A DNA stretch of 64,000 nt from Micractinium sp. NFX-FRZ (Eukaryota > Chlorophyta > Trebouxiophyceae > Chlorellales > Chlorellaceae), in contig JAPTJF010000294.1 in the NCBI GenBank assembly GCA_029339195.1, positions 1 to 64,000 of the forward strand, in the 5' to 3' direction. The notes under the pieces are model-generated. The model did not search any database. It was not told where the DNA came from and was given only the letters and a program-made list of their open reading frames with translations. Each line of letters begins with the position of its first letter. Within the stretch, counting starts at the first letter, position 1. A program made the position numbers and the translations under genes. Positions 57,137 to 63,945 of this stretch are shown here, piece after piece.

Positions 57137-58277
57137 ATGGCGTCCCTGTGCCAGGCCTTCTCCAGCATGTCCCTGCAGCAGCGGCCTCGTGCCCTGCAGA
57201 CGCAGAAGGTCGCCATGGGTGGGCAGCGGCTGGTGGCTGGTGAGTCTCTCCTGCTTGGCACAGCCATGTGCGGCGTGCAGCCGCGCAGCCGGCTCCAGGC
57301 CCCCCCAGGCCTAGCGCATTGTGGCTTGTGGAGCGCGTGCGGGCCACCGCATGGCATATTGTGGCCGTCACCCGCGCGCCGCCTGCAGCACCCCGCCCCT
57401 TGGCCCGCGCCGCCGCCCCGCCTCGGTCCTGCCGCCGCACTTCCGCGTGTGCCTGCGCCGAGGCATCGCCGCTGACGGCCCCACCCCCCTGTTACCCCCT
57501 GTGTTTGAGCAGCCGCGCCGCAGCGCAGCGTGTCTGTCTCCGCATTCGTGGTGGAGGCCAAGCAGAACAGTCTGAAGCGGCAGCGCGTCGCCGAGAAGTC
57601 CCGCCTGCAGAACAAGAGCCGCAAGAGCGAGATTGCCACCCGCATGAAGAAGGTGGGAGCGAGGGCTGTTGCTGCTGATGCTTCCGCCATCTGTGCTGCT
57701 GGCGACGCTGCTGGCCACTTGCGGTCTCTGCTGCAGCTGCTTGCAGCACGTGTGCGGCAGTGAGGGCGACGCGCCGTCGCGGCGCCGCCCAGCGGTGCTC
57801 TACCGCGGCTGCCCTGGGGCGGTGCACTGCCTGATGTCGAGACCTCAGCTGACAGCCCGGCCTCGCCATGTTCCTCTGTCCTGGGCTGCAGGTGTTCACT
57901 GCTCTGGATGCCTACAAGTCGGCCCCGCCCGCGGCTGAGGCTGACCTGGCGCCCGTGCAGACCCTCATCTCTGAGGCCTACAAGGGTGGGTGCTGCCGCT
58001 ACCAAAGAGAGAGATACACACTGCCTGCCGCACTGTGCGGTGCAGCACCATGGCTGTGCACATGCTGGGCTGGCCTGGGCTAGGTTCAGTGCAACAGGCG
58101 CGACCCTTCCTCACGTTCCCTCAACCCCATCACTCTCTTGCCTGCCGTGCAGTGATTGACAAGGCTGTGGGCAAGGGCGTGCTGCACAAGAACACCGCTG
58201 CCCGGCGGAAGGCGCGGCTGGCGACGGCGCGCCGCAACGTGCTGGTCGCTGCCGGCCTGTACACTCCGGCGCAGTAG
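57137..58277 (+). CDS. RPS20: Plastid ribosomal protein bS20c
   Basis: Part of the small subunit of the chloroplast ribosome, binding 16S rRNA. Four exons (57137-57239, 57513-57652, 57892-57985, 58153-58277) join in frame to 153 residues. The first 40-50 residues ([18 protein letters not shown]...) are a plastid transit peptide. The mature part follows bacterial S20: [20 protein letters not shown], a central helix, and the hallmark [15 protein letters not shown] near the end. Bacterial S20 is about 87 residues, so the mature length fits. The next gene, CDC26, begins 547 bases downstream on the same strand. Confidence 0.93.
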
Positions 58278-58824
58278 GCTGCCACGCCTGGCTGGCTAAG
58301 GGGCCCCTCCTCGCTCGAGGGGTAGCTCAGTGTGAGCGCCCCGCGGCTGCACCGACACCACACTTTGCTTTGCTTGCTCCCGTTTCTTCTGTTCAGAAAC
58401 TATTTCAGCTGTTCTTCTGGGCCCCCATTACTGGCCCGCCGTTTCCCCATTGCAACCCAACTGCGCTCACCCAACAGCGGCAGCCCAGAGGTAGGGATAG
58501 GGAAAGCGTGGCGAGGCAGGCCGGGCAGCAGTCACCCAGGCATCGGCAAGGTTGAGAGGCTGTTGCTCAGCAGCTTGTCATGCTTCAACAGACCATCGTG
58601 GCAGTGAGGCATTCAGAGTGTGCATGCAAAGGTGCTCCCACCAGTGGCAGCCACGCCAATGGTTGATGATGAAGTCTTATGCACTGCCGGCGGCTGCCAG
58701 GCGGGCAACCTGGGACCTGCATTTGGGCGCTCTCAAGCGTGCTGTCGCATTCCCAGCGCGCGTCCCTCCTGCATGCTTGTGGGCCTTGTGGTTCGCTCGG
58801 GGCGCTGCGTGCGCGCACACTCTT
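58278..58824. promoter_or_regulatory. Upstream region of the CDC26-TTM3 pair
   Basis: Holds the 3' end of bS20c and presumably the only promoter of the CDC26-TTM3 unit. The unspliced stretch contains ATGs (for example near 58660-58680), so the 5' end of the mRNA or an upstream intron decides whether they are scanned. No TATA box is obvious. Confidence 0.4.
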
Positions 58825-59243
58825 ATGCTGCAGCGCAAGCCCACACGCATCGAGCTCAAGTCGGAGGACAAGGAGGAGGTGATGAAATGGGCGAATGCGC
58901 GTTATCTGGCCTGCAGCAGCTGAAGTCTTCACAGCGATCATCTCCTCCTGCCTCATTCTTGCCTCTGTCATTGCCTCTGCCGCAGTACGAGTTGGTGCGC
59001 GAGGAGCGGGAGCAGGCCAAGTTGCAGGCAGCCGCACAGGCAGCCGGCAAGACGCCACTGTCGCCGCTCTTCGCGGTGCGCCGCCAGGCCCTCTGCCTCC
59101 TGCGCCGCCGCCGCTGCCTGCTCTTTCCTGTGGTCAGTGCGTACCACAGCTCAAATGAGCACGGTCTAATGGCCAACATGTGCATGCAGGCCCCGGCAAA
59201 GAAGCCCACGGCAGCGCAGCGCATCGGCTTGGTGCCACAGTAA
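58825..59243 (+). CDS. CDC26: APC/C subunit CDC26
   Basis: Small subunit of the anaphase-promoting complex, the ubiquitin ligase that drives exit from mitosis; in other eukaryotes its N-terminus packs into the TPR subunit APC6. Three exons (58825-58878, 58986-59075, 59190-59243), all in phase 0, encode 65 residues. The start MLQRKPTRIELKSEDKEEYE matches the diagnostic CDC26 N-terminus (MLRRKPTRxELKxxDxxEYE), and the end QRIGLVPQ matches its short conserved tail. The frame contains no other ATG in any phase once spliced. The start context is weak (C at -3, C at +4). The stop is 86 bases before the TTM3 start, the arrangement known in Arabidopsis, where one mRNA gives both proteins. Confidence 0.92.
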
Positions 59244-59329
59244 GGGCGTCGCAGGGCAGCGGCGCCGCTCCGCCAGCACCCACCACCGCCGTGGCAGCAG
59301 CAGCAACAGCAGCAGCAGCAGCGGGAGCA
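59244..59329 (+). promoter_or_regulatory. CDC26-TTM3 intercistronic spacer, ATG-free
   Basis: 86 bases with no ATG on the sense strand, ending in CAG-type repeats (cagcagcagcagcgggagca) just before the TTM3 ATG. Too short for an ordinary promoter between genes, so TTM3 is probably read from the CDC26 mRNA by leaky scanning or reinitiation. Confidence 0.7.
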
Positions 59330-61092
59330 ATGGAGGTTGAGGTGAAGCTGCGCCTTGCGGACGCCACTGCGCACGCCAAGCTGGCGGCAGCGCTGCAGCC
59401 GGGCTACCGCACCACCCACCAGCAGGAGAACTTTTTCTTTGACGGGGCAGGCAAGGAGCTGAGCAGCCGGCGCGTGGTGCTGCGGGTGCGCTTCTACGAT
59501 GTGGACAAAAAGGCGGTGATCACAGTCAAGGTGAGTGCCAAGCTGTGCGTGTGTGCATGCGTGTGTGCGTGGAGAGTGCGACGAGTGTGTGTGTGTGTGC
59601 GCGTGGACAGTGCAGCATGCGAGTGTGTGGGAGGTGGGCGCATTGGTGCTGCAGGGGCACCGCTGATGGCCTGATGGCAGCAAGAAGGTTGGGTTGAGTG
59701 CAGGTTGGTGGCGGGGCAGGGCAGGGGGTCAATCTGCAGGGGGCCAGGCGTGGCAGGACGGCATTGGGCGGGCACTCTATCTGATGCCGTTTCTGCTGCT
59801 TGCTTCTGCCGCAGGGCAAGCAGGTGCTGCAGGACGGCATTGGGCGGGCTCCCGAGGAGGAGGAGCCAGTGGACCCGGCAGCCGCCCGCGCATTCCTCAC
59901 AGACCCAGCCCGGCTGCTCAACCTGGGCACCCCGCTGCTGGAGGGGCTCAAGAGGTGGGGGATTGGGGGAGGGGATGGACGTGCTTGCGCTTGATGCAAG
60001 GGCGCAGGGTGTGGAGGGGGGCGGCGGGCCGGGACGTGGTGGGCAGGCGCTTCGTGGCGTGCTCTGCTTGCTGCTGGGTTCCCCGGCCGTGCCCCAGATG
60101 CCCTGCCTCCCTGCCTGGTAACCCCCCGCCCTGACCTCTCACGCTGCGTGCTGTGCCGCCCTGTGCTGTGCTGCAGCTCCACCGGTGTCACGGAGCTGGT
60201 CTGCCTGGGGGGGTTCAACAACACGCGGCAGGAGTTTGAGGTGGGTGGCAGGGCGGAGTGTGTGTGCTTGCATGACCGTGGCTTGCCTGCCAGGTTGATC
60301 CGCAGGAGTGGCGCTGTGTGTGGGGGGCTTGAAGTGAGGCCTGGAACGGTTCCCAACCTGGCGTCGCCCCTCCTTGACACACCCCGCCACACCATTCCTA
60401 TCCTCGCCTTGTCATTCCTACCCCGCCCGCACGCTGGGGTGGCAGCCTCCTGACGCTGGATGAAACCCTGCTTTGCCTAAACCCATAACCCTCCCTCCCA
60501 CCCTGCCCGCTCCCCACCCCTGCCCTGCCCTCCGCAGTGGGGCGGCCACCTGCTGGAGCTGGACGAAACCAAGTTTGAGTGGGGCACGCTGTATGAGCTG
60601 GAGTGCGAGACGGTGAGAGGCCGAGGCTTGGGGCGGCTTGATGAGGGGCTGCCATGAGGTTGTTGGTCGGCCTTGGGCATGGTAGGCGGGCATTCTCATC
60701 TGGAATGCGAGATGGTGCGCGCAAAGGCTGGGTGGGGGGGTGGGGGGGGAGGGGTGCGGCTGGATTCGGGCGGGCTGGCGGGCAGCAATGACGATGCTCT
60801 TCATTGGTTAGCACAGCGCACACAGTGCACCTGCTCCAAGTGCCTGCTTGCTTGCAGCACACGCACACACCGTGTCACACTGCACACCACATGCACGCGG
60901 CGCTGGCCACCACCCCCTCCCCCGCCCTGCCTGGACCTTTTCCAACTGCCCCCGCCCTGCCCTCTGTCCCCGCAGGCGGAGCCTGAGCGGCTGCGGGGCG
61001 AGCTGGAGGCGTTCCTGACCCAGCAGGGCGTGGCCCACAGCTACAGCACCACCAGCAAGTTTGCCAAGTTCCGCAACCGCACACTGGAGTAG
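59330..61092 (+). CDS. TTM3: CYTH triphosphate tunnel metalloenzyme TTM3
   Basis: Hydrolyses inorganic triphosphate and short polyphosphate using a divalent metal inside a beta-barrel tunnel (established for the Arabidopsis enzyme). Five exons (59330-59530, 59815-59954, 60177-60240, 60538-60612, 60976-61092) join in frame to 198 residues, close to the plant protein. The signature ExExK stands at the very start (MEVEVKLRL). Others follow: RVRFYDVDKKAVITVKGK with the basic tunnel residues, and LELDETKFEWGTLYELECE near residue 145. The start at 59330 is in a strong context (G at -3, G at +4). The frame stays open upstream into CDC26 and an in-frame ATG at 59180 lies in the CDC26 intron, so it is not in the spliced message. 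Introns around exons 2 and 4 contain echoes of those exon edges. Confidence 0.92.
59731..59850 (+). repeat. Acceptor-side splice echo (TTM3 exon 2)
   Basis: Exon 2 begins at 59815; its acceptor and first 30 or so bases are echoed at about 59731-59777 in the upstream intron. Both share gcaggacggcattgggcggg, and the copy is preceded by its own ctgcag. Confidence 0.88.
60421..60577 (+). repeat. Acceptor-side splice echo (TTM3 exon 4)
   Basis: Exon 4 starts at 60538. A diverged copy of its first 40 bases lies at 60421-60470 upstream, sharing tgggg-ggc, cctcctg or cctgctg, and ctgga-gaaacc. Confidence 0.78.
60581..60720 (+). repeat. Donor-side splice echo (TTM3 exon 4)
   Basis: The exon 4 end at 60581-60620 (ctggagtgcgagacggtg) is echoed at 60676-60720 downstream (ctggaatgcgagatggtg), 16 of 18 bases alike across the junction. 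Confidence 0.75.
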
Positions 61093-61919: not shown

Positions 61920-63945
61920 CTATGTGGCACGCGACAGCACCGCGGGGTCTGCATTGGCGATGATCCAGGGGTGCTGCAGCACCTGCTCCAGCGGCAGGCG
62001 GTCCCCCGGCTTCTTCACCAGCAGCTGCAGCAGGAAGCAGTGGGGGGGCGGGGCGGCGGCGCATGGTGAGCGTCCAAGCTGCCAGCACCGCACTTCAGCT
62101 GTACGTGATCCGGCTGTCGAGCACAGCAGTGCACCGACACTACCACTGCTGCTCTTCTGCCCAACCCAGCCACATGACCCCACCAGCACCCATTGCCCAC
62201 TTGTCTCGCGAGCCTTGCCCCACATCAGCACCCCCTCAAGCCCCACCCAACAAACCCTCACCACCCCGCCCACCTTCTTGATGAGGTCCTTGGCGCCGTC
62301 GGTGCGCTCCGGGGCGGGCGGGAATTTGAGGTCGACGCGCAGGATGCGCTTGTACGTCTCGCTGTGCCCCGCAGCCTCAAAGGGCGGCTGGCCGTACAGG
62401 AACTCGTAGCACAGCACGCCCTGCGGGGAGCAGCGGGGGGACAGTGGGAGGGGACGTGCTCAGATCTTAGGGCCAGGCGGTGCCAGTGGAAGCGTGTCCA
62501 GGAGGCAGGGGGACCCCAGGCAGCACAGTTCCCACACTGTTCCCCCGCCCGACAAAGACATCAGCAAGCCCAGCAAAACTGCTGCTATCTGCCGTGCCCA
62601 CCAGGCCGGCCCTGGATCACGTCAGGCACCCAGCCCCCGCCACTCACCAGGCTCCACACATCCACCGCCGCGTCGTGGTAGCTGCCCTCCACCATCTCAG
62701 GGGGCAGGTAGTCCAGCGTGCCGCACAGCGTCTTGCGCCGGCTGTTGGGCGCGTGCACCGACCTGTGGGTGCAGGTGGGGAGGGCATCGGGTGGGCGCTG
62801 AGCAGCAGCAACGGTGTTGCAGGGAACAGTGCACACGCTTGGTGTGCCATCAAACAGGCCTCTTCCGTCCAGCTCCATCTTCATCACTTGTCTGGTTCCT
62901 CCGAATTGGTCTTAACGCTCACCACCCACCCAGCCCGCCCGCCCACTCACCACCCAAAGTCTGCGATCTTCAGCTCCCCATTGAGCCCCAGCAGCAGGTT
63001 CTCGGGCTTGATGTCGCGGTGGATGACGTGCTTGGAGTGGCAGTAGGTGAGCGCCTTGGCCAGGCTGGCAATGTAGGTCGCGGTGCGCCGCTCGTCAAAG
63101 CTGCCCGCACGCTGCAGCAGGGCAGGCAGGGTGGGGGGAGCAGGTGGGCGGGGTGAGGGAGCAGGCGGTCAGCCGGGTGCCCACTCACCTCCCGCCGCTG
63201 CTCCTCCTCCTCAGGCAGCTCTCACCCCGCCTCCCAGCACCCACAACATCGTTGCCCCCGGCTCACCCCACTTGACACCTTCCCCTGCCCAGCAAAGTGA
63301 ACCCGGCCTTGCGGCCCACCTGCAGCTCCTTGTACAGCTCCCCCCGCGCCGCATACTCCAGGATGAGGTACACGCGCGTGGCGTCGTAGAAGTAGCCGTA
63401 GAGGCGCAGGATGTTGGGGTGGCGCAGGTGGCTCTGGATCTCAATCTCGCGGCGCAGCTGGTGCTCAACGTTGGACTGCTGCAGCTGGTTCTTGAACAGC
63501 ACCTGCGGGGCAGCGTGGAGATGGCAGGCAGACGGGCGGGGTGAGGTGCACGACTTGGAGAGAAGGGGAGGGCTAGACAGCGATGAGCATGCCGGCACCC
63601 TGGAGAGGGTGTTGACGGTGAGAACTGGTGGCAGGGTGTGGTGAGAAGTGGTGGGCATGTGAAGGGAGGGCAGATGATGTCTGCCGGCTGCTGATGCCAA
63701 CCACTGCCGCGGCAAACCTGTGGGGCACCCATGCGCGCAAATGCAACACCTGCGAGCCTCCGTCCTGCACCCCAACCTGCACCCGTGCTCCAACACACCT
63801 TGAGCGCCACAATGTACTTGCTCTTGCGCTCCCGCGCCAGGTAGACGTTGCCAAACTTGCCGCGCCCCAGCGGCTTGCCAATGTCGAAGTCGGTCAGCTG
63901 CCATCGCCGCGCCACGGCGGCGCCGCTGGTCGACCGCTCCCGCAT
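61920..63945 (-). CDS. AUR1: Aurora-type Ser/Thr protein kinase
   Basis: Mitotic kinase that phosphorylates histone H3 and spindle proteins in plants and animals. Six exons (63945-63799, 63502-63320, 63111-62951, 62762-62648, 62420-62274, 62024-61920) join in frame to 285 residues, the usual Aurora size. Visible parts are the Gly loop [13 protein letters not shown], catalytic Lys in [43 protein letters not shown] and the activation loop [19 protein letters not shown]. The Thr in RRKTLCGT is the expected autophosphorylation site. [16 protein letters not shown] and a C-terminal helix follow. DFGW plus the [10 protein letters not shown] loop is diagnostic for Aurora rather than other AGC-like kinases. 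The frame stays open upstream to the window edge, so a longer N-terminus is possible, but the ATG at 63945 gives a normal length. It lies near CDC26, another mitotic gene; no functional link is shown. Confidence 0.93.

Follow-up and report, generated by a model that had tools for sequence, protein, structure and literature searches.

The bicistronic arrangement of CDC26 and TTM3 reportedly goes back to an Arabidopsis study by Lorenzo-Orts et al. 2019. In green algae, bicistronic gene pairs have been described in which the first open reading frame (ORF 1) opens with a weak start, AUGs are depleted and the second (ORF 2) is reached by leaky scanning, CDC26_TTM3 being one of the pairs named (PMC11892635). 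The parts of that study drawn on here place CDC26_TTM3 among 36 high-confidence Chlamydomonas loci selected with ribosome-profiling evidence, and report weak ORF 1 starts and depletion of AUGs before ORF 2 in the published sets, with median inter-ORF spacings of 40–183 nt in bicistrons as against 2,518–3,415 nt between collinear monocistronic genes (PMC11892635). In reporters of the A. protothecoides TOM22 and OST4 loci, ORF 2 output rose when the ORF 1 start was removed and increased over twofold when its context was weakened; it dropped by factors of 1.5 and 1.7 when the context was strengthened, and to below half when an extra AUG was placed in the spacer (PMC11892635). In Arabidopsis, translation of TTM3 is described as raising the abundance of CDC26, with ribosomes recruited to a transcript otherwise open to nonsense-mediated decay (PMC11892635). 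The original prediction for the present DNA had cited an Arabidopsis bicistron conserved in the plant lineage, which agrees with the passages of three sources that describe CDC26_TTM3 as conserved across plants and green algae (PMC11892635, PMC7943633, PMC6973038).

The locus analyzed here lies in a window of 64,000 nt (bases 1–64000 of contig C294), and the genome searched comprises 66,065,352 bases in 838 contigs. Its assignment to a green alga follows the original prediction, the GC-rich genes with introns and the set of bicistrons described below. We conclude that the locus is a further instance of the published arrangement with the published mechanism, and assign a probability of roughly 0.8 to its being a conserved plant and green-algal CDC26_TTM3 bicistron that yields both proteins from one mRNA by leaky scanning. 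The identity and order of the genes and their frame offset can be read directly from the sequence, as can the AUG content and the start contexts; three more of the published bicistrons occur elsewhere in the genome. The features of the locus, in window coordinates, are as follows.

58773..58775, plus strand: nearest ATG upstream of CDC26, 52 nt before it and in the frame of TTM3; possibly included in the mRNA
58825..58827, plus strand: CDC26 start codon with C at both -3 and +4, a weak context; the protein aligns with human CDC26 from residue 1
58825..58878, plus strand: CDC26 exon 1; the spliced protein matches Pfam ANAPC_CDC26 (E 3.7e-9)
58879..58985, plus strand: CDC26 intron 1, 107 nt, GT..AG, 3 ATGs; predicted splice sites
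58986..59075, plus strand: CDC26 exon 2
59076..59189, plus strand: CDC26 intron 2, 114 nt, GT..AG, 4 ATGs, without an in-frame stop; predicted splice sites
59190..59243, plus strand: CDC26 exon 3 including the stop codon
59244..59329, plus strand: inter-ORF spacer, 86 nt, 0 AUG, 3.5% T, with a GCA repeat at 59294–59322
59330..59332, plus strand: TTM3 start codon with G at both -3 and +4, a strong context; placed by alignment with solved plant TTM3-type proteins from residue 1–2
59330..61092, plus strand: TTM3, with a CYTH domain (Pfam CYTH and Arabidopsis TTM3 5a5y matches)
59330–59530, 59815–59954, 60177–60240, 60538–60612 and 60976–61092, plus strand: the five exons of TTM3

Joining of the three CDC26 exons, whose splice sites were set by homology and consensus alone, gives an ORF of 198 nt with its stop codon; its 65 codons end 86 nt before TTM3, exactly as predicted. 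The score of the spliced protein lies above the 24.5-bit cut-off of the ANAPC_CDC26 family, and the match to human CDC26 has an E value of 4.2e-5. The five-exon model reproduces the TTM3 protein exactly, which matches Pfam CYTH (E 9.6e-19) and solved plant-type proteins (E 6.6e-47 for the best; E 3.7e-43 for 5a5y, Arabidopsis TTM3). The TTM3 start was placed at 59330 because the alignment with the solved proteins begins at the first residues. By these family and structure matches, the predicted product of ORF 1 is confirmed as CDC26 and that of ORF 2 as a TTM3-type CYTH enzyme.

The genome contains two CYTH matches. One is the TTM3 described here; the other, in contig C263, lies inside a longer kinase-like protein that we take, by eye, to be probably of the uridine kinase-CYTH type (TTM1/2). 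A second CDC26 match (two in the genome in all), in contig C445, fell below the cut-off and was judged by eye to be a chance match. With these other matches dismissed by eye, the genome appears to hold a single candidate each for CDC26 and for a TTM3-type gene, a count read from exon-by-exon searches, which a divergent second copy could escape. Pattern scans for TTM3 gave 10 matches in viral_contigs and 75 in genome_contigs, with no confirmed relative in either, and the locus had no megablast match among phage records.

The introns of CDC26 carry three (intron 1) and four (intron 2) AUGs upstream of TTM3, as had been claimed. Retention of either intron would change the CDC26 protein itself: the translated sequence stops after 32 codons if intron 1 is kept, whereas keeping intron 2 adds 38 in-frame residues, producing a 103-residue CDC26 and four more ATGs. 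The original prediction had suggested that such retention could tune the ratio of the two proteins, a proposal that found no support in the analysis. Since intron 2 is a multiple of three without an in-frame stop, the absence of AUGs from the run before TTM3 hinges on its removal. The Pfam score is the same, 37.8 bits, for the spliced and the intron-2-retaining proteins. The T content of intron 2 (21%; intron 1, 28%; CDC26 exons, 10.6%) favours its being a true intron.

With both introns removed, the CDC26 frame and spacer make up 284 nt in which the only AUG is the start of CDC26, leaving 281 nt free of AUG up to TTM3; the AUG-free layout is confirmed as originally described, as are the start contexts, C/C for CDC26 and G/G for TTM3 at -3/+4. 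The two ORFs lie on the same strand, each with its own start and stop, and TTM3 is in a different frame (offset 2); this excludes both readthrough of the stop and a 2A-like fusion. The weak first start followed by a strong second start is consistent with leaky scanning. In the proposed mechanism, both ORFs would be carried by one capped, spliced mRNA, and some of the scanning ribosomes would start at the weak AUG of CDC26, making the 65-residue APC/C subunit. Ribosomes that pass it would meet no AUG for 281 nt and would then initiate at the strong AUG of TTM3 and produce the triphosphate tunnel enzyme. The RNA fold of the 299 nt spanning CDC26, the spacer and the TTM3 start showed no excess stability (z -1.00; of 200 shuffles, 35 were as stable or more so).

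In a rival reading, the single shared transcript presumed here would give way to two same-strand neighbours that are transcribed separately. TGTAA is a poly(A)-type motif, and it is absent both from the 86-nt spacer and from the 608 nt after TTM3, so that it does not discriminate between shared and separate transcription. The inter-ORF gap is just 86 nt, which argues against separate transcription when set against the published spacings of bicistrons and monocistronic genes, as does the description of the conserved pair as bicistronic in the text of PMC11892635. We regard mere adjacency as very unlikely.

The portion of PMC11892635 drawn on here names both members of four pairs (CDC26_TTM3, REX1S_REX1B, TOM22_SDHAF3 and OST4_FAM32A); all four were sought in the genome, and all are collinear. 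For the three further pairs, family matches were found in L062, L065 and L074, respectively. The search with the Ost4 family gave no match in the genome; an intron-split Ost4 is present upstream of FAM32A, making that result a false negative. The properties of the four pairs are listed below, with start contexts given as -3/+4.

CDC26_TTM3: ORF 1 internal AUGs, 0; spacer 86 nt, 0 AUG, T 3.5%; CDC26 C/C, TTM3 G/G
REX1S_REX1B (L062): ORF 1 internal AUGs, 0; spacer 219 nt, 0 AUG, T 6.4%; REX1S C/G, REX1B G/A
TOM22_SDHAF3 (L065): ORF 1 internal AUGs, 1; spacer 163 nt, 0 AUG, T 11.0%; TOM22 A/G, SDHAF3 A/G
OST4_FAM32A (L074): ORF 1 internal AUGs, 0; spacer 85 nt, 0 AUG, T 10.6%; OST4 T/A, FAM32A C/T

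A purine occupies -3 at one of the four ORF 1 starts and at three of the four ORF 2 starts. Two starts in this genome break the weak-then-strong pattern: TOM22 has a strong start of its own (A at -3, G at +4), together with a single in-frame AUG inside the ORF that is flanked by G at -3 and +4, and the start of FAM32A is weak (C at -3, T at +4). All four spacers are U-poor (T 3.5–11.0%). The layout is common to the bicistrons of this genome; codon-level selection against AUG is not apparent from it. Because the three other published pairs are collinear in the same genome, the CDC26-TTM3 locus is best read as working by leaky scanning too.

The original prediction had left the route to TTM3 as leaky scanning or reinitiation. 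The pair is real and its layout matches green-algal leaky scanning as described in PMC11892635; the sequence of the locus does not itself choose between the two routes. Were TTM3 made mainly by reinitiation after translation of CDC26 on the same mRNA, the short ORF (65 codons) followed by an 86-nt AUG-free spacer would suit it, and the shortage of AUGs is compatible with reinitiation too; in the text of PMC11892635 drawn on here, its authors do not fully exclude some contribution of this kind. Against it, removing or weakening the ORF 1 start at the two other loci in A. protothecoides raised ORF 2, where reinitiation predicts the opposite (PMC11892635). It is because of these reporter results in another alga, and not because of the sequence here, that leaky scanning is preferred as the main route and that we consider predominant reinitiation unlikely.

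The AUG desert itself had been attributed to selection. By itself, the absence of AUGs is marginal against chance. At the density of a coding reference from the same genome (49 coding pieces, 9,045 nt, 96 ATGs), a 281-nt run would be free of ATG with a probability of 0.049 by a Poisson estimate or 0.078 by random draws, and 5.6% of 281-nt pieces of the plus strand of the window and 5.9% of those of the minus strand lack ATG. The spacer alone is ordinary, 38% of the 86-nt pieces of the window being free of ATG. A codon-shuffled control had been proposed for the CDC26 frame. Synonymous resampling of CDC26 gave a mean of 0.15 internal AUGs with none in 85% of trials, or 0.18 and none in 82% with a smaller codon table, and given the protein, zero internal AUGs is the expected outcome; the claim of selection at the codon level finds no support in this control. 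Shuffles of CDC26's own codons never produced an internal AUG (mean 0.0), but this shuffle is unable to test selection, having the same limit as the dinucleotide shuffle of the spacer. The latter gave no ATG in any shuffle of the CDC26 or the REX1 spacer (P 0.0), making it uninformative on selection, and because it cannot yield an ATG, the 82% figure reflects CDC26 alone. TTM3 is likewise AUG-poor, with two internal AUGs in 597 nt where synonymous resampling expects 1.5 and base composition about six (the latter computed with one base missing from the exon set); at the codon level, the desert is therefore no peculiarity of CDC26.

The low U content of the run is less ordinary than its lack of AUGs, which it accompanies: 24 of the 284 nt are T, and 24 or fewer are found in 0.1% of plus-strand and 1.8% of minus-strand pieces. 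Genome look-alikes of the CDC26-TTM3 spacer were mostly matches to its GCA-repeat part.

Support for selection for leaky scanning beyond the demands of protein and base composition comes from pooling the four bicistrons. Their ORF 1s hold one internal AUG where coding density predicts 8.0 (P 0.003), their 553 nt of spacer hold none against 7.0 at window density (P 0.0009), and AUG depletion is significant across the published sets described in PMC11892635. However, given the proteins, the expectation over the four ORF 1s drops to 2.35 internal AUGs, with one or fewer in 24% of resamples, and CDC26 taken alone is without an internal AUG in most resamples, as above. The spacers of REX1B and SDHAF3 are AUG-free by construction, since the first AUG was taken as the start of each; the spacers of TTM3 and FAM32A, whose starts were set by homology, give P 0.11. 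The published observed/expected ratio of AUGs rests on length and GC content (PMC11892635) and is not a protein-conditioned control. We hold it doubtful, though conceivable, that selection for leaky scanning maintains the desert; selection on amino-acid choice or U content is possible.

Upstream of the core TTM3 start, the frame of TTM3 stays open for 167 codons in the unspliced genomic leader, through CDC26 and including the ATG at 58773. Neither of the two non-CDC26 frames has a stop across the 284-nt run. If the 58773 ATG is included in the mRNA, translation from it would give TTM3 with a 112-residue Ala/Arg/Gly-rich extension that overlaps CDC26. Transcription starting upstream of 58773 would then offer three useful starts (the weak 58773 AUG, the weak CDC26 AUG and the strong AUG of core TTM3) and two translated frames over the CDC26 exons, and the extension could be an organelle-targeting leader. 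The resampled chance that the TTM3 frame stays open over CDC26 and the spacer is 0.34, the 58773 ATG is flanked by T at -3 and C at +4, and a Pfam search gave no family for the extension; we therefore treat the extension, and the open frame, as probably due to chance and give the three-start possibility almost no weight.

Genes were also recognized on both sides of the pair. Hand-joined exons at 57509–58277 on the plus strand encode a bacterial-type ribosomal protein S20 (Pfam E 9.4e-21), and this gene ends 547 nt before CDC26 on the same strand. At 61920–63168 on the minus strand is an Aurora-type kinase whose exons, joined by hand, align with Aurora kinase A chains (E 4.6e-75). It is a second cell-cycle gene, placed tail to tail with the CDC26-TTM3 pair, probably by coincidence.

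Leaky scanning on a shared mRNA is the preferred reading, and one more green alga joins those with this deeply conserved eukaryotic bicistron. The locus also illustrates that in a GC-rich genome, a short ORF that is charged and lacks methionine can acquire a striking AUG desert through its protein and base composition; claims of selected AUG avoidance thus need a protein-conditioned control.

Compared with CDC26_TTM3 of green plants as described in the sources drawn on here, the locus showed no distinguishing feature in its sequence. The reporter evidence belongs to the TOM22 and OST4 loci of A. protothecoides and not to the CDC26-TTM3 locus analyzed here (PMC11892635). TOM22 of this genome, with its strong start and one internal AUG, is unlike the ORF 1 expected under leaky scanning. 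As far as these sources describe them, TOM22_SDHAF3, OST4_FAM32A and REX1S_REX1B, the pairs of green-algal leaky scanning, resemble the locus in a short ORF 1, an AUG-poor run and, presumably, an ORF 2 on the same mRNA, and CDC26_TTM3 of Arabidopsis, Chlamydomonas and green plants shares with it the same genes, order and strand, a short ORF 1 and separate frames.
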